Assembly (NCBI GenBank): GCA_000252485.1
Contig: JH611072.1
Coordinates: forward strand, 1-32,153
Source of the DNA: Prochloron didemni P4-Papua_New_Guinea
Lineage (GTDB): Bacteria > Cyanobacteriota > Cyanobacteriia > Cyanobacteriales > Prochloraceae
Direction of reading: 5' to 3'
DNA: 32,153 nt
Of the stretch, positions 4,547 through 30,214 are shown one piece after another (the stretch's first letter is position 1; each line of letters opens with the position of its first letter). The position numbers were made by a program, and so were the translations under genes. Below the pieces are notes generated by a model. The model had not been told where the DNA came from. It saw nothing but the letters and a program-made list of their open reading frames with translations, and did no database searches.

Positions 4547-5584
4547 ATGAAAAAGAGAAAAACTAAGTTTAAAGCCATCTTATCTTTCCTCGTGGCACAG
4601 GCATCTTGCCTGTTCGTAGGAACCCTGGCTTTTACCCTAGCCCTGAATGGATGTGTAGGTGGAAGCAACAAACTAACAACCATGAAAGTTGCTATTACTC
4701 ACTGGCCAGGATTTGACATCATTCTCTATGCTCAAGAAGCAGGTTTATTTGCCAAACGGGGACTGAATGTAGATTTAATCCGTTTTGAAAATCAGCTAGA
4801 TTCTTCTCGGGCAGTTCTTCAGGGGTCTTTAGATGCAGCTTTTATTACGATGACAGATGCCATGCAGGTGGATTCAGGTAAAAACAAACCCGCTTTTGTC
4901 TTAGTAACTGACATTTCTGCTGGTTCTGACGGTATTGTTGCACAAAAATCAATTCAGTCAGTAAACGACCTCAGGGGGAAAAAGGTTGGAGCAAAGCTAG
5001 GTACAGTTAATCATCTGATTCTCTTAGAAGCCCTGGCAGCTGCAAAAATACCTCCAAGTGCAATAGAAATTGTAGATGTTTCTAATGAAATTGGCTATTA
5101 TGAAATAAAGAAAGGAAATTTAGATGCGACGGTAATCTGGGAACCTCTATTGAGCGAGACAGCAAAAGCAATAGATGGCAACATTATATTTACAACAAAG
5201 GACTTGGACAGCTTGGTAATTGATGGTGTCTTAACTCGGTCAAGCTTTGTAAAAGAAAATAAAGAAGAATTGACCAAATTTATTTTGGCTTGGTTTGATG
5301 TGATGCATGCGGTAGAAACCAAACCTAATGAAGTATTTACTGTAGTAAGCAAACAACTAGGACAAACTGAGGAATCCTATGCTAGCAACTACGCAGGACT
5401 AAAAAAAGGAGATATTGACTTAAATAGGCGCATGTTTAAACCACAAGGTCGCTTAGAAGAAGCAATGGAAGAAACTGTAGAATTGTTAAGCAAAGACCAG
5501 CGTCATGGTCGGATTCTTAGGAAAGTGGACATCAATGGAGAAGCAGTAACTGCAGCAATGGAGGCATGGAAACCATTAAATTAA
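4547..5584 (+). CDS. NMT1/THI5-like periplasmic substrate-binding lipoprotein
   Basis: This 345-residue protein is of the SsuA/ThiY/NMT1 periplasmic-binding class. KVAITHWPGFDIILYAQEAG and LFAKRGLNVDLIRFEN form the first lobe. QGSLDAAFITMTDAM, NDLRGKKVGAKLGTVNHLIL and GNLDATVIWEPLL are typical of the fold. The start at 4547 is chosen because a lipoprotein signal peptide (KKRKTKFK, hydrophobic core, LALNGC with Cys36) begins there after GAGAGAAAG; the frame is open 14 codons further up. No permease or ATPase gene is adjacent. Instead a sensor kinase follows after 57 bp, which suggests a ligand-sensing role. The ligand is not predictable. The signal-peptide core contains an inserted palindromic repeat. 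Confidence 0.85.
   Translation: MKKRKTKFKAILSFLVAQASCLFVGTLAFTLALNGCVGGSNKLTTMKVAITHWPGFDIILYAQEAGLFAKRGLNVDLIRFENQLDSSRAVLQGSLDAAFITMTDAMQVDSGKNKPAFVLVTDISAGSDGIVAQKSIQSVNDLRGKKVGAKLGTVNHLILLEALAAAKIPPSAIEIVDVSNEIGYYEIKKGNLDATVIWEPLLSETAKAIDGNIIFTTKDLDSLVIDGVLTRSSFVKENKEELTKFILAWFDVMHAVETKPNEVFTVVSKQLGQTEESYASNYAGLKKGDIDLNRRMFKPQGRLEEAMEETVELLSKDQRHGRILRKVDINGEAVTAAMEAWKPLN
4597..4613. repeat. ACAGGCATCTTGCCTGT palindrome inside the signal peptide
   Basis: ACAGGCA/TGCCTGT is a perfect inverted repeat around a 3-bp centre. The flanks (GTGGC on the left) match those of two other copies, at 9185-9201 and 11191-11207, in opposite orientation. Here it encodes part of the hydrophobic core (AQASCLF), so hydrophobicity is preserved. 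Confidence 0.8.
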
Positions 5585-5626
5585 CTTAGGATTAAAGCAT
5601 TAACTGCAGCAATTGAGGTATGGAAA
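5541..5626 (+). repeat. Partial tandem duplication of the lipoprotein gene 3' end
   Basis: Positions 5541-5572 (end of the lipoprotein gene) and 5595-5626 (intergenic) match at 29 of 32 bases. The second copy runs directly into AAAGGAGG, which serves the kinase start. Confidence 0.85.
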
Positions 5627-5641
5627 GGAGGCATGGAAACA

Positions 5642-7303
5642 ATGAAATACTCTGGGCTATTTAAGGGCAGTTTGTCTAGGCAACTTCTAGCTGGCTTCGG
5701 TCTTTCCCTAATCACGGTGGGAGCAGCTACCCTTGGAATTAATTACCTTTTGATCCGTTCTGATTTAGAAGATCAAGTTGAACAAAGAGCGCAATCTATT
5801 ACCCAAGGTTTAGTATTTGCTACAGAAGGGGCAATTGAAGTAGGCTATGATAGCATCTTGCGGCGAGTCGTGCAAAATTATTCGACTTTCCCTGCAGTGG
5901 AAGAAATAGCAGTTGTAAGGCCAAACGGTGAAACATTGGCTAATAGCGAAGAGTTAACACCAACAAGAAACCGTCCCTATAGATTAATTCGTCCGGAACT
6001 GGCAACTGCAATGGATGAAGCTGCTAACAGTAGTGATGAAATTAGCTTACGCAAAACAATCGACAACAAAAAAGTTTTGGTACAAATATTTCCCTTTAGC
6101 AGTGTTTTGTTTGGAACCTCAGAACGTAGGGGTTTAGCGATAGTGATCGTGGATCTCCAGGAGATGGAGGAGGAGATTTGGAAAACTTTCTCCACTTCTA
6201 CGCTCACTCTCTTGAGTGGGATATTGATAATCTTGGTTGTAATGGGAATTTTAATTGAAAAAACTACTCTCGGACCATTGAACAAACTGAACCAAGCAGT
6301 TGAATTAAGTCTTGACTTGGGATTGTTTGAACTTCCCGAACCCATGCCTCAAAATGAGATTGCTTTTTTGACTACTACTTTTGACAAGGTTTTTAAACAA
6401 GCAAAGGAGTCAGAAAAATCTCTACGGCAGTTAAATGTAGAATTGGACCAAAGAGTTCAAGCCCGCACTTCTGAGTTACTGCAAGCTAACAAACAATTAG
6501 GTGATGAGATTGTGGAGCGCAAAAAAGTTGAACAAGATTTGCGCCAATTCACCTCCAAACTAGAACAAAGCAACCGCGAGTTACAAGACTTTGCTTACGT
6601 TGCTTCCCATGACCTACAGGAACCGCTGCGGAAAATTCAAGCATTTGGCGATCGCCTCAAGGCAAAATGCGGCGATGCAATAAGTGATAAAGGAAAGGAT
6701 TACCTAGAAAGAATGCAGAGTGCCGCTAATCGGGCACAAACCTTAATTAATGATCTCCTAGCTTTTTCCAGAGTAACCAGCAAAGCACAACCGTTTGTTG
6801 AGGCAAATCTAAACAAGATAGTGCAAGGGGTTTTATCGGATCTCGAAGTGCGCATTGAAGAAACAAAAGCCAAAATAGATCTTGGAGATTTACCAACTCT
6901 TGAGGCCGATAGACTGCAAATGCGACAATTACTCCAAAACCTCATTGGTAATGCCCTGAAGTATCGTAAAGAAGATGTAAATCCGGAGATTGAGATTAAG
7001 GCAAATTTATATGAAGAGAAGATTGAAGATTCTAATGGAGAAAAGATTCTCAAGGACATGTATCGCATTACTGTTGCCGATAATGGTATTGGTTTTGATG
7101 AAAAATATGTAGATAAGATATTTACTGTGTTTCAACGATTACACGGTCGCAAAACTTATGAAGGCACTGGCGTAGGATTAGCTATTTGCCGTAAAATAGT
7201 CGAACGGCACAACGGCGAGATTACCGCAACAAGTACCCCAGGAAAAGGCTCCACTTTTATTGTGACAATTCCTGCAAAACAAACTACTGATGAGAGTACA
7301 TGA
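5642..7303 (+). CDS. Membrane sensor histidine kinase
   Basis: The first transmembrane helix is at about residues 15-36. A periplasmic sensor of about 145 residues follows, then a second helix (about 185-205), a HAMP-like linker (GPLNKLNQAVE, NEIAFLTTTFDKV) and a coiled coil. A HisKA domain carries the phospho-acceptor in ASHDLQEPL (His323). A HATPase domain has QLLQNLIGNALKYR (N box), DNGIGFD (G1), FTVFQRLHGR (F) and GTGVGLAI (G2). All catalytic motifs look intact. The second ATG (5642) is preferred because GGAGG lies 10 bases before it and only 1 base before the first ATG (5633). The gene overlaps the next by ATGA. Context suggests the upstream lipoprotein presents a ligand to the periplasmic domain. 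Confidence 0.92.
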   Translation: MKYSGLFKGSLSRQLLAGFGLSLITVGAATLGINYLLIRSDLEDQVEQRAQSITQGLVFATEGAIEVGYDSILRRVVQNYSTFPAVEEIAVVRPNGETLANSEELTPTRNRPYRLIRPELATAMDEAANSSDEISLRKTIDNKKVLVQIFPFSSVLFGTSERRGLAIVIVDLQEMEEEIWKTFSTSTLTLLSGILIILVVMGILIEKTTLGPLNKLNQAVELSLDLGLFELPEPMPQNEIAFLTTTFDKVFKQAKESEKSLRQLNVELDQRVQARTSELLQANKQLGDEIVERKKVEQDLRQFTSKLEQSNRELQDFAYVASHDLQEPLRKIQAFGDRLKAKCGDAISDKGKDYLERMQSAANRAQTLINDLLAFSRVTSKAQPFVEANLNKIVQGVLSDLEVRIEETKAKIDLGDLPTLEADRLQMRQLLQNLIGNALKYRKEDVNPEIEIKANLYEEKIEDSNGEKILKDMYRITVADNGIGFDEKYVDKIFTVFQRLHGRKTYEGTGVGLAICRKIVERHNGEITATSTPGKGSTFIVTIPAKQTTDEST

Positions 7304-7761
7304 TGAGAAAAGACGGACAAAGAATTATTATTCTAGTGGCAGACGATGACGAAGATGATCGTTTCTTGATGGAGGAAGCCCTCGAAGAAAACGAATTAGG
7401 AGACGTTTATTTCGTTGAGGATGGAGAGGGGCTGATGGATTATCTTCACCATCGAGGTAAACATAGCGATCCCGATTTTTCCCCTCGTCCCAGTCTGATC
7501 ATCTTGGATCTGAATATGCCCAGAAAAGATGGAAGGGAAGCTCTCAAAGAGATTAAAGAAGACCAAGAACTGAAGAAAATACCAGTGGTAGTTTTGACTA
7601 CCTCTAAAGCAGAAGAAGATATCTTTCGGACTTACGATCTGGGGGTAAATTCTTTCATTGCCAAACCAGTAACATTCGAATCAATGGTAGCAATCATGAA
7701 AACGTTGGGACTCTACTGGTTTGGACTGGTAGAATTACCTACCAAAATTGAAGGGGGTTAA
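7300..7761 (+). CDS. Rcp1-like single-domain response regulator
   Basis: This 153-residue stand-alone receiver has the acidic pair in VADDDEDD, phospho-acceptor Asp70 in LIILDLNMPR, the Thr switch in VVVLTTSKAEED and Lys in FIAKPVTF. The extended beta-alpha loop (DYLHHRGKHSDPDFSPRP) and the C-terminal tail with YWF are typical of Rcp1, the partner of cyanobacterial phytochrome-type kinases. There is no output domain, so it probably shuttles phosphate or binds a partner protein. It overlaps the kinase stop by 4 bp (ATGA), implying translational coupling, and is the likely cognate regulator. Confidence 0.93.
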   Translation: MMRKDGQRIIILVADDDEDDRFLMEEALEENELGDVYFVEDGEGLMDYLHHRGKHSDPDFSPRPSLIILDLNMPRKDGREALKEIKEDQELKKIPVVVLTTSKAEEDIFRTYDLGVNSFIAKPVTFESMVAIMKTLGLYWFGLVELPTKIEGG

Positions 7762-7762
7762 G

Positions 7763-8431
7763 ATGAAAAATGGCTCGGTAAAAGTGTTGCTAGTTGATGA
7801 TGACGAAGATGATTATGTGGTGACTGAAGATTTGCTGGATAGTGCGGAAATAGGTATGTTCGAGCTACAGTGGATAGATAACTACGAGCAAGCTCTAGAA
7901 GCTGTTTCTCAAAAGAATCATGATGTATATCTTTTTGACTACCGCCTCGGTCCACAAACAGGTTTGGATCTTTTAAAGGAAGCTATGGAAAGGGGCGTGA
8001 GATCCCCAATTATTTTGCTTACTGGTTTGGGAGATCATGACATAGATAGTGAAGCGATGAAGATTGGAGCGGCAGATTATTTAATTAAGGGCCAAATGGA
8101 CACTGCCATACTGGAAAGATCTATCCTCCACGCTATTGAACGCAAACAGACAGATGCAAAACAAGACCAACTTGTAGATGAATTAGAAGAGGCAAATCGG
8201 GAATTAAAAAACTTAGCTTATCTTATATCCCAAGATTTACAAGCTCCTATGCGAACAATTAGCTCCTTGGCAGAATTGATTGGCTCTGATTATGGTGATA
8301 AATTTGATGAGAAGGGTAAAGGCATGTTGCAGTTGCTGAAAAATACCATCGGGCGTATGAATAAGCAAATTGATAATTTAATGAATAATTCTAAATTAAG
8401 AGATCAGGTAAAGCAAAAAGCAGAGGAATAA
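7763..8431 (+). CDS. Receiver domain fused to a His-less dimerisation (DHp) domain
   Basis: Residues 1-125 form a receiver: VDDDEDD, Asp59 in YLFDYRLGP, Thr in ILLTGLGD and Lys in YLIKGQ. A coiled linker (ELEEANRELKNL) leads to a HisKA-like helix pair. In LISQDLQAPMRTI the usual phospho-accepting His is Gln157 (codon CAA, 8231-8233). There is no ATPase domain; the protein ends after the second helix. The upstream kinase has SHDLQEPL at the equivalent place, so the domains look paralogous. The ATG at 7763 is chosen over the TTG at 7748 because GGGGG lies five bases before it. It could act as a phosphate sink or bind the kinase through a heterodimeric four-helix bundle; this is inference. Confidence 0.85.
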   Translation: MKNGSVKVLLVDDDEDDYVVTEDLLDSAEIGMFELQWIDNYEQALEAVSQKNHDVYLFDYRLGPQTGLDLLKEAMERGVRSPIILLTGLGDHDIDSEAMKIGAADYLIKGQMDTAILERSILHAIERKQTDAKQDQLVDELEEANRELKNLAYLISQDLQAPMRTISSLAELIGSDYGDKFDEKGKGMLQLLKNTIGRMNKQIDNLMNNSKLRDQVKQKAEE

Positions 8432-8558
8432 CAGCAAAAGTAACAAAAATTGTTAACCATTACCTTGAGGCTTATTAGGATAGCTAAACTACTCAGACAC
8501 AAGTATCAGCATTTGTTTTTACAATTACCATTACACAAGCTGAGGGTAATCATGAATC

Positions 8559-9046
8559 ATGGAGAAATACACAAGCCAAATTATAATTCTAGTTGCAGAT
8601 GATGACGAAGATGATCGCGAAGCGCCGCTCTTAGCGATCGTTTTCTAATGGAGGAAGCGTTAGAAGAAAACAATTTGGGTACAGTATATTTCGTTGAAGA
8701 TGGGGAAGAATTAATGGATTATCTTCACCATCGCGGTCAATATACCAGTGAGGATTCTTCGCCTCGTCCTAACATAATTCTCCTGGATTTGAATATGCCA
8801 AGAAAAGATGGACGGGAAGCTCTCAAGGAAATTAAAAGTAACGAAAAACTGAGGAAAATTCCAGTTGTAGTTCTGACAACTTCCAAAGCAGAAGAGGATG
8901 TTTTGCGTACTTATAACTTAGGGGTGAATTCTTTCATTAGCAAGCCAGCAACATTTGACTCAATGGTGGAAATGATGCAAACTTTGGGTAAGTATTGGTT
9001 TGATGTTGTGCAGCTACCTGATCGGATTAGCGAAGATTTTAGTTAA
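8559..9046 (+). pseudogene. Second Rcp1-like response regulator, split by a repeat insertion
   Basis: From the ATG at 8559 the frame reads MEKYTSQIIILVADDDEDDR. It then enters a 23-bp insert and stops at TAA 8646-8648. Removing the 23 bp restores DDRFLMEEALEENNLG and a complete regulator very similar to the one at 7300. The 3' part (ATG 8648 to 9046, 132 residues) keeps the phospho-acceptor in IILLDLNMPR, LTTSKAEED and the Lys, but lacks strand beta-1 and the acidic pocket. Stop and restart overlap as TAATG, so both pieces could still be translated. A complete fold from two chains is possible but unlikely. Confidence 0.9.
8613..8640. repeat. 28-bp HIP1-associated repeat inserted in the regulator gene
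   Basis: An 18-bp imperfect palindromic core (8618-8635) is flanked by GATCG on both sides, like a 5-bp target duplication. The complete 28 bp recurs identically at 25697-25724, and 20 bp recur inverted at 30119-30138. Confidence 0.9.
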
Positions 9047-9184: not shown

Positions 9185-9201
9185 ACAGGCAAGATGCCTG
9201 T
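9185..9201. repeat. ACAGGCAAGATGCCTGT palindrome, intergenic copy
   Basis: This is the same palindrome as at 4597-4613 and 11191-11207, followed by GCCACGA as at the third copy. It lies between the convergent regulator and FHA genes and may act as a transcript-end hairpin. Confidence 0.75.
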
Positions 9202-9224: not shown

Positions 9225-10010
9225 TCAAGATAACTCGAAGATAAAAGTAACCTTGTCCTCTTTCCCCAGGGCTATGCGATCGCCAGCCCGCAGTCGATGG
9301 CGATTACCTGGTAGTAAGGGGGTGTGGTTAATATAAGTTCCATTGGAACTACCTAAATCTTCGATAAAGAAAGCATCTCCTTCCAAGCGAATCTCAGCAT
9401 GAACTCGAGACACAATCTCTGAATCGGAAAAACCAGCTACATCAATATCGGGAGGAATCTGTTCATTGGGCTTACCGATATGAACAACCGGCAGATTCTG
9501 CGGTATTTCAATAGTGGTATTGCTTTGTAGATGTAATAATCTCGCTTGATAGGTTTGAAGTTTAGTGGGAGAGCTTATGGGTGGTGCTATAGATGGTGTT
9601 GTGGATTTCTCTGTTTTTTCTTCGGAAGGGTTGCCAGTTTCTTCTGTTTCGATGTTGACAGACATTGTTGGATCGGGGCCAATTGTTTTTTCTAGTTCCA
9701 TTGTGACAGACTTAGCCGAGCTAGAAGTCTCAATTGATGGAATGGTAGGCAAAACGACAGGGTCTGGTTTTTGGCTTTCTTCTGCCTCAGGAATTTCCGA
9801 TGTGTTCACAATTGTTTCTGTGGATTTTGCAGTGTTTTCGGTCATCTCTGGTAGTAAATTAAAACCACACTGACCGCAGAACGTTGCGTCTGGTTCTACG
9901 GGAGCGCCGCAATTGGGGCAGCCACTAGTAGTGGATAAAGGAGTATAGCAAGCTTCGCATTGGTTAGCTCCTTCTGGATTTTGGTGATTGCAGTTAGGAC
10001 AGACAATCAT
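9225..10010 (-). CDS. Zinc-ribbon and FHA-domain protein
   Basis: This is a 261-residue protein. Two zinc ribbons open it: CPNCNHQNPEGANQCEAC and CPNCGAPVEPDATFCGQC. A long Ser/Thr/Glu/Pro-rich linker (about 55-150) is probably disordered. A C-terminal FHA domain reads VVHIGKP, SEIVSRVHAEIRL, FFIEDLGSSNGTYIN and LRAGDRIALG. FHA domains bind phosphothreonine peptides, so it is likely a cytoplasmic reader of Ser/Thr-kinase signalling. A Ser/Thr kinase lies at 19503, but adjacency is not close enough to argue a pair. The gene is convergent with the split response regulator. Confidence 0.9.
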   Translation of the reverse strand: MIVCPNCNHQNPEGANQCEACYTPLSTTSGCPNCGAPVEPDATFCGQCGFNLLPEMTENTAKSTETIVNTSEIPEAEESQKPDPVVLPTIPSIETSSSAKSVTMELEKTIGPDPTMSVNIETEETGNPSEEKTEKSTTPSIAPPISSPTKLQTYQARLLHLQSNTTIEIPQNLPVVHIGKPNEQIPPDIDVAGFSDSEIVSRVHAEIRLEGDAFFIEDLGSSNGTYINHTPLLPGNRHRLRAGDRIALGKEDKVTFIFELS

Positions 10011-10943: not shown

Positions 10944-11762
10944 ATGAATAGCGCGAAAATGTCTCTATTTACCTCTTTTTCTCTCAAGTTAGTGGGTACA
11001 ATTTTAATATTGGCTTCTCTGCTTGACTATATCATTCTGGCAATTCCCTTCAGATACCAGCAAGAGCAATGGCTGGTTGGCTTCATAACTCAAGTTGTGG
11101 ACAGAGGGATAATTCCCATGATTGGCATTGTCTTTGTCATAATAGCATATTGGATCGACAGCAATATTGGTAGCCGAAACACTACGAATCACAGGCAAGA
11201 TGCCTGTGCCACGAAATCTTTTCGGACGGATTTAAGGTTGCCGATGTTTGTGCTTGCCAGTGTTTTAGGACTTGTATTTTTCGGTTTGGTTGCGATCTAC
11301 CTGAACAGTCTACGCATAGTTAGCTCTGAGACGATTGCTACCATCGAAGAACAAGTTCAACAAGCTAACGAGGAATTGGATCAGTTCGATACCTTGCTCG
11401 AAGATCCACAGTCCGTAGATCGGCAAGTTAAAGAACTGGATCTAATCCTCGAAACTGGTCAATTGCAAGGACAACAGCTCAGTCAGCAGCAGCTAATTCG
11501 TGTGGAAAGGGGAAAACAATTTTTTGAATCTTTACAAGCAAATCCTGAGGATGCGGAGAAAAGAATCAAAGAACGTCGAACTCAATTACTGAATACGCAA
11601 AAAGAAGGAGAAAAGCGAACCAAAACTGAGACTCTCAAGCGAGGTTTGCGCATTGGTTTGAGTAGTTTGATGTTGGGGGGAGTTTACTCAGCCATCGGTT
11701 GGTTAGGCTTAAAAGGGCTAGGTTCTTCCACATCTCCAGGTCGCAAAGTACCCAAGCGCTGA
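10944..11762 (+). CDS. HpsJ-like membrane protein
   Basis: This is a 272-residue protein with hydrophobic segments at about 8-32, 48-66, 100-120 and 238-258, and a long charged coiled coil (about 130-230). The N-terminus (SLKLVGTILILASLLDYI, then PMIGIVFVIIAYWI) recalls the HpsJ family of filamentous cyanobacteria, linked to hormogonium polysaccharide export. That match is from memory of the family and function here is not proven. Residues TNHRQDACATKSF, between the second and third hydrophobic segments, come from an inserted palindromic repeat. The frame stays open through it, so the protein is probably still made. Confidence 0.6.
   Translation: MNSAKMSLFTSFSLKLVGTILILASLLDYIILAIPFRYQQEQWLVGFITQVVDRGIIPMIGIVFVIIAYWIDSNIGSRNTTNHRQDACATKSFRTDLRLPMFVLASVLGLVFFGLVAIYLNSLRIVSSETIATIEEQVQQANEELDQFDTLLEDPQSVDRQVKELDLILETGQLQGQQLSQQQLIRVERGKQFFESLQANPEDAEKRIKERRTQLLNTQKEGEKRTKTETLKRGLRIGLSSLMLGGVYSAIGWLGLKGLGSSTSPGRKVPKR
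11191..11207. repeat. ACAGGCAAGATGCCTGT palindrome inside a coding region
   Basis: This in-frame copy encodes HRQDACAT in the HpsJ-like protein, in a polar loop. Its 17 bp are identical to the intergenic copy at 9185-9201, and the flanking bases ATC on the left and GCCACGA on the right also match. Confidence 0.85.
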
Positions 11763-25384: not shown

Positions 25385-25696
25385 AATTGTAGGTTGGGTT
25401 GAGGTAACGAAACCCAACAGCCCAGGAGATTTGTGTCGAGTTTCTCTATCGGGAGAGCCAACCTACTGTTGTTCTACTATATATTTTATTAACCTAGGGG
25501 TTGACAGCAAGAGATTTAGTTTGCTATTATTAAAGTGTGTCTCAAGGGGGAACGAGCCGGAGACTGATCGGCTTCGCTCCTTCCCTGTGGGACTCCCAGT
25601 GTCAGGAGCCAGGAGACCGATCAGCTTCTCGCTCCCTGTCGCTGCGCGGTCCCGCAGGGATCTGCTCCGCAGCACACGCAGTGGCAGGCTTCGCCT

Positions 25697-25724
25697 GATC
25701 GCGAAGCGCCGCTCTTAGCGATCG
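25697..25724. repeat. 28-bp HIP1-associated repeat, second copy
   Basis: These 28 bp are identical to the copy inserted in the response regulator at 8613-8640. Confidence 0.9.
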
Positions 25725-29952: not shown

Positions 29953-30214
29953 GGGCGATCCACCTATTTAGGTGATCGCGCTACTACGGAGAAATTTACT
30001 CTATTTACGAAGGAATGGGGGTTGACAAAGACGAATTTTCGGTTAATATTTAAATAGAGCATGAAATTGTAATTTGGGAAGAGTGTAGCAAAAAAAAGTT
30101 AATTTGTAGGGTGCGGGCGCTAAGAGCGGCGCTTCGCGAGCGCAACGCACCACCAGGGTTACGCTGTTGGGTTTCGTGCCTCAACTTTTTTTATTTTGTG
30201 GAATAGATTTCTGC
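29953..30214. other. Repeat-rich intergenic region
   Basis: This region contains ATCGCGCTACTACGGAGAAA (near-copy of 23279-23306) and a TTGACA (30022-30027) with AATATT 17 bp on. The 28-bp family repeat is inverted at 30119-30138. I find no gene on either strand. Confidence 0.6.
30119..30138. repeat. HIP1-associated repeat, inverted third copy
   Basis: GCTAAGAGCGGCGCTTCGCG is the exact reverse complement of the core inserted in the response regulator gene. Confidence 0.85.

Follow-up and report, generated by a model that had tools for sequence, protein, structure and literature searches.

A substrate-binding lipoprotein and a Cache-domain sensor as a probable signalling module without transport function in cyanobacteria

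The 32,153-nt stretch of Prochloron didemni DNA that was analysed here (referred to as the window) encodes an NMT1/SsuA-like substrate-binding lipoprotein (SBP) followed by a membrane sensor histidine kinase with a Cache domain, and the two probably form a single non-transporting signalling module in which the SBP acts as co-sensor. Such a ligand-sensing module, of which the open papers searched gave no description, would be widespread among cyanobacteria and would devote to signalling a binding protein whose family otherwise serves importers. Within one clade there are dozens of naturally occurring pairs that differ in output, so that the ligand and the docking surface are directly testable, and the default annotation of NMT1-type SBPs in cyanobacteria as transporter subunits is unwarranted.

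In the mechanism that we infer, which covers physical docking, ligand class, signal direction and phosphotransfer, the lipid-anchored SBP would face the periplasm and bind a solute that is small and probably anionic, and one of the SBP states would dock on the kinase's Cache domain, thereby altering the kinase/phosphatase balance. In this genus, the histidine kinase would most likely pass phosphate to the response regulator encoded by the overlapping gene (RR1), and possibly also to a receiver/pseudo-DHp protein acting as modulator or dimerisation partner, with the second Rcp1-like gene being a broken paralogue in this strain. A preliminary description of the locus had listed five genes, namely a binding protein, a two-helix kinase, an Rcp1-like regulator overlapping it by ATGA, a receiver/pseudo-DHp protein and a second Rcp1-like regulator, and had proposed a lipoprotein co-sensor with phosphate split between three receivers. 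The layout proved correct for four of the five genes (Table 1), and the interpretation as a whole is partly supported.

Table 1. Features of the SBP-kinase locus in the window
Feature	Position	Strand	Basis
NMT1/SsuA-like substrate-binding lipoprotein (SBP)	4547..5584	+	Pfam, TIGRFAM, AF2 model, lipobox
22-nt dispersed repeat (GTGGCACAGGCATCTTGCCTGT) inside SBP signal peptide, in frame	4593..4614	+	genome count, alignment
SBP-kinase gap, 48 nt	5585..5632	+	sequence; in frame with both genes
Membrane sensor histidine kinase	5633..7303	+	Pfam HisKA and HATPase_c; AF2 model of residues 1-250
RR1, Rcp1-like single-domain response regulator	7300..7761	+	Pfam; PDB relatives; dN/dS
Receiver and pseudo-DHp protein, no ATPase domain	7763 (ATG)..8431	+	Pfam; H-box comparison
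Second Rcp1-like gene, broken	8561..9046	+	comparison of 7300-7380 with 8561-8660
23-nt repeat insertion (cgaagcgccgctcttagcgatcg) breaking the second Rcp1-like gene	~8618..8640	+	genome repeat count

The binding protein and the sensor domain

The best start of the SBP gene is the ATG at 4547 (MKKRKTKFKAILSFLVAQASCLFVGTLAFTLALNGC, lipobox LNGC), the longest open reading frame running from 4505. The protein matched the Pfam models NMT1 (75.8 bits, 6e-21) and NMT1_2 (66.6 bits) above the gathering score, and its 108.1 bits against the SsuA family TIGR01728 lie below the curated cut-off of 163.5 bits, so that it was not assigned to SsuA. Its AF2 model (pLDDT 92.7) has the periplasmic-binding-protein type II fold, with TauA (6ssy) and SsuA (2x26) as the best Foldseek matches and nearest solved SBP folds. 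These two are ABC importer subunits, and identity to them is 17–19%, but the motifs G-T/S-x-x-H-x-x-LL and W-x-P are shared in the aligned regions. Since both motifs (166–174 and W212-x-P214 in the numbering of the long reading frame) are also conserved in the alignment of the SBP clade described below, they suggest a small, anionic ligand. When read in frame, the gap that separates the SBP gene from the kinase gives ALTAAIEVWK, which resembles the SBP C-terminus AVTAAMEAWK as a partial duplication, and a single TAA is the sole separator of the two frames.

The kinase is ordered as TM1, Cache domain (approximately residues 39–187), TM2, coiled coil, HisKA and HATPase_c, and in the model two long transmembrane helices enclose an extracytoplasmic domain of about 150 residues, in agreement with the two-helix architecture described earlier. 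The sensor domain (pLDDT 77) is predicted to adopt a Cache fold between the two helices, which would place the kinase among the Cache receptors; Pfam Cache models gave only matches below the cut-off for the window kinase. According to Foldseek and VIA-align, its best solved matches include the extracellular domain of WalK/YycG (Z 15.6–15.9, rmsd 2.1–2.3 over 134–138 residues), followed by CitA (Z 13.5–14.3), DctB and DcuS (Z 12.7). The WalK/YycG domain is alike in fold and unlike in sequence (11% identity); we know of no SBP partner of WalK/YycG, and the fold match implies no solved SBP-WalK complex. A domain of this fold could bind a ligand of its own, which speaks against the SBP as the only input. 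The sensor also has a conserved motif, R78-Q81-N82-Y83-x-x-L86-P87.

Pairing across cyanobacteria and the question of transport

Homologue searches placed the SBP in a distinct cyanobacterial clade, at the edge of which identities drop from 45–66% to around 31% or less, disregarding one short decayed fragment in the same-genus relative G001. Clade SBPs were present in 39 of 390 cyanobacterial genomes, counting one outlier (G072/L108, E 2e-51, no sensor) that was placed outside the clade, and the reverse search retrieved the sensor in 45 of the 390; 38 genomes have both, compared to approximately 4.5 expected. A contig scan gave no match with a single-protein query and 50 loci with an alignment query, these being named contigs with a clade SBP from Pseudanabaena, Phormidium, Leptolyngbya, Microcoleus, Nostoc, Calothrix, Xenococcus and Synechocystis salina.

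Pairing was counted by applying profiles of the SBP and of the N-terminal 250 residues of the kinase to the fetched loci. A protein with the sensor domain is encoded directly 3' and on the same strand for 71 of the 75 non-redundant clade SBPs, with an identical 13-nt overlap of the two genes in 46 of the 71 pairs, and the named set, from Pseudanabaena to Nostoc to Xenococcus, has 48 of its 50 SBPs paired. The SBP is linked across lineages to a receptor with an extracytoplasmic domain, as is characteristic of SBP-dependent three-component sensors, and the link between SBP and kinase is strongly supported. In a clustering of the neighbours at 74 loci, the sensor protein was the only family common to more than six loci, and conserved neighbours at these loci offered no functional clue apart from it. 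One such pair, whose SBP carries the annotation of a hypothetical protein, lies beside an IS605-type gene on the Nostoc sp. HK-01 plasmid AP018319.1 (L225).

Four SBPs are unpaired: two are paralogues from the same genome as the window (contig C371), one comes from Xenococcus PCC 7305 and is followed by a Ser/Thr kinase gene, and one is a Leptolyngbya copy. On C371 (L031 5281-11799) the two SBP genes flank carbamoyltransferase, cupin-like and SIS-domain genes with no kinase among them, and no sensor start could be read in the 245 nt between the second SBP and the contig end. In the alignment, the conserved pocket His 170 is replaced by Glu in both paralogues, so they may bind something else. 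Conversely, about ten sensor loci lack an intact neighbouring SBP, although a fragment of one remains at L156, and some of the other sensor genes are incomplete or situated at the end of a contig. Like the two C371 paralogues, which have neither kinase nor permease beside them, these loci speak against the co-sensor reading. Three of the sensor kinase cassettes without an SBP (L161, L162 and L163), which include receiver and receiver-kinase genes, adjoin an inward-rectifier-type potassium channel gene (Pfam match in L161, the others alike by sequence).

Within 1.5 kb, all 33 clade SBPs tested had the sensor and none of the 33 had ABC genes, compared to 0 of 22 and 15 of 22, respectively, for NMT1-type SBPs outside the clade in related genomes; the loci were the best matches of homologue searches rather than a random sample, and a gene was counted as ABC if related to the SsuBC-like permease or ATPase encoded in the genome of the window. 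The preliminary description had expected homologous lipoproteins to sit with the sensor and not with ABC genes, and the gene order bears this out. Its statement that no transporter is adjacent also holds in a search for permeases, which found no PF00528 member on either the window contig or C371. G008 has one such permease at a distance of 3.2 kb, encoded on the other strand. Within 1.5 kb, the clade loci tested lack the permease and ATPase genes that mark an ABC importer subunit, and the likely role of the SBP is to detect a small molecule, not to take it up.

As a general matter, SBPs that work with permeases encoded at a distance are known, and the SBP might be a transport subunit for a permease encoded elsewhere, with the kinase as a co-transcribed regulator that senses a related cue by itself. 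We regard this as unlikely: it would be in keeping with the SsuBC-like ABC system on contig C353, but that contig has an SBP of its own with no more than 30% identity to that of the window, the clade SBPs accompany the sensor and not ABC genes, and the sensor domain tracks the divergence of the SBP instead of that of its own kinase core.

The latter was seen in correlations of pairwise distances, which reached r = 0.89 for SBP and sensor, 0.51 for SBP and kinase core, and 0.40 for sensor and kinase core. All three values would be raised by common ancestry alone, and the correlation of the kinase core is lowered by its greater divergence and by its being drawn from different kinase types; the difference between the first two values is what one would expect if SBP and Cache domain stay linked while domains are shuffled. 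Behind the same Cache domain, the 71 pairs have a kinase (40), a hybrid kinase with a C-terminal receiver (29), a PAS-GGDEF-EAL output (1) or the sensor only (1). As judged from the sequences, SBP and sensor domain evolve jointly and the outputs are modular. The PAS-GGDEF-EAL output replaces the kinase at L038 8081-11672. A broader conjecture, rather doubtful in its entirety, is that the whole NMT1-type clade gave up transport to become an exchangeable ligand-reading head, that the SBP and Cache cassette moves between kinases, hybrid kinases and c-di-GMP enzymes, sometimes on plasmids, and that in this genus the catalytically dead receiver/pseudo-DHp protein is a phosphorylation-switched partner tuning the kinase dimer.

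Known SBP-activated receptors and same-genus relatives

In HptA-HptS, XylFII-LytS, AioX-AioS, TorT-TorS and LuxP-LuxQ, a periplasmic or lipid-anchored SBP is the extracellular co-sensor of a histidine kinase; their SBP families and sensor domains differ from those of the window pair, and we know of no relation between these systems and the pair. Receptors activated by SBPs are known and widespread and comprise kinases, c-di-GMP enzymes and Ser/Thr kinases, with only around 10 characterised cases of SBPs activating sensor kinases; the same source also cites both XylFII-LytS and the TMAO receptor (PMC9602780). By analogy, the best reading of the pair is that of an SBP-activated receptor in function, of the kind of HptA, CuaD, XylFII and AioX, for which the SBP family and the Cache fold were tested. 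No description of this cyanobacterial pair was found in the open-licence papers searched.

The CuaD-CuaS-CuaR system of Ruminiclostridium cellulolyticum likewise has an SBP gene beside a two-component system, together forming a three-component system (PMC10384115). CuaD is specific for cellobiose and its system controls the CuaABC importer, whereas the window pair is cyanobacterial, has an SBP of the NMT1/SsuA family and no importer nearby. PA0602 and PA4985 of Pseudomonas aeruginosa, encoded near AgtS and AruS, are also SBPs outside transporter operons and close to sensor kinases, but differ from the window SBP in family (SBP_bac_8 for PA0602) and in having GABA ligands, and the AgtS system lies beside an ABC importer (PMC11113362).

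In the two same-genus relatives, G001 and G002, the SBP is a pseudogene: in G002 it is interrupted by stops and by changes of frame close to the C-terminus, and in G001 only C-terminal fragments are left. Both have a stop at the same site, which suggests that the SBP was lost in one ancestral event. The frames of the kinase, RR1 and the pseudo-DHp protein are open in both genomes, so the kinase can be kept without the SBP, and this counts against a simple co-sensor model. It favours an SBP that modulates a kinase having another input or a default state, comparable to CuaSR, which still perceives its signal without CuaD, the latter binding the kinase and lowering the detection threshold (PMC10384115).

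The Cache domain might even sense the ligand directly, with the SBP as an optional enhancer that collects ligand at high affinity, as reported for CuaD (PMC10384115). Besides this precedent, the cassettes retained next to decayed SBPs in the two relatives and the several sensor loci without an SBP agree with such a role; at the large majority of loci the SBP nevertheless remains beside the sensor, and WalK as nearest fold match is no proof that the Cache pocket binds a ligand. We rate direct sensing as possible yet somewhat unlikely.

Downstream receivers and dispersed repeats

The Rcp1-like regulator of the preliminary description was recovered as RR1, which overlaps the kinase stop by ATGA and provides a response regulator downstream of the SBP/sensor pair. 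Its nearest solved relatives in the PDB include RcpB, RcpA and Rcp1, phytochrome response regulators of the same sequence family; unlike these, RR1 has a Cache-domain kinase as its partner and not a phytochrome. The next protein indeed combines a receiver with a pseudo-DHp domain, in which the phospho-accepting histidine is replaced by Gln (H-box LISQDLQ vs. VASHDLQ in the kinase), as is also the case in G001 and G002. No recognisable trace of a leftover ATPase domain was found 3' of it when the three frames were read. Near full-length matches (68–69% identity) are confined to the genus, outside of which the best matches are receivers inside longer open frames and the other long alignments are weak (28–34%). 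RR1 and the pseudo-DHp protein are genus-specific companions of the kinase.

The reading frame 8648–9046, previously taken for the second Rcp1-like gene, was rejected as a complete receiver, being only the 3' part of a gene that begins at 8561 (MEKYTSQIIILVADDDEDDR...) and is frameshifted past residue 20 by the 23-nt repeat. The insert shifts the frame and the resulting TAA overlaps the ATG at 8648 (TAATG, 8646–8650), so that the acidic residues DDDEDD are cut off; by re-initiation, the product could at best be a receiver without them. In G002 the orthologous gene is intact, whereas that of G001 has a frameshift close to the C-terminus. With this gene broken, the three receivers proposed earlier are reduced to at most two plausible ones in this strain. 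The proposed phosphate split is therefore weaker than the co-sensor idea, the more so as the other two receivers are confined to the genus.

It is quite improbable that the operon is decaying in the genus and that the window pair is a relic. Such decay could explain the SBP pseudogenes of G001 and G002, the second Rcp1-like gene broken in both the window and G001, and the repeat insertion in the SBP signal peptide, which adds a few residues (AQASC) absent from the homologues in the alignment. The frames of SBP, kinase, RR1 and pseudo-DHp protein are, however, all open in the window, the strongly conserved clade positions are retained in its SBP, as far as they were compared by eye, and dN/dS is 0.08–0.16 across kinase, RR1 and pseudo-DHp protein, with about 0.08 for RR1 (vs. 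G002) and about 0.13–0.16 for the pseudo-DHp protein across the genus (rough values, as dS is near 1.2).

Both inserted sequences are dispersed in the genome. The 22-nt repeat has 164 genome copies at ≤ 2 mismatches, and the 30-mer enclosing the 23-nt repeat has 31 copies at ≤ 3 mismatches, compared to 0 for a reversed control pattern. Three of the 31 form a tandem array on contig C85, spaced 23 nt apart. The 23-nt unit is related to the HIP1 palindrome, and more copies lie in the window at 25695–25724 (+) and 30114–30143 (−). The 22-nt repeat also occurs at 9186–9200 (−) and 11192–11206 (−), one copy being located within the open reading frame 10944–11762, where it reads HRQDACAT. A zinc-ribbon and FHA-domain protein is encoded at 9225–10010 (−), convergent with the operon.
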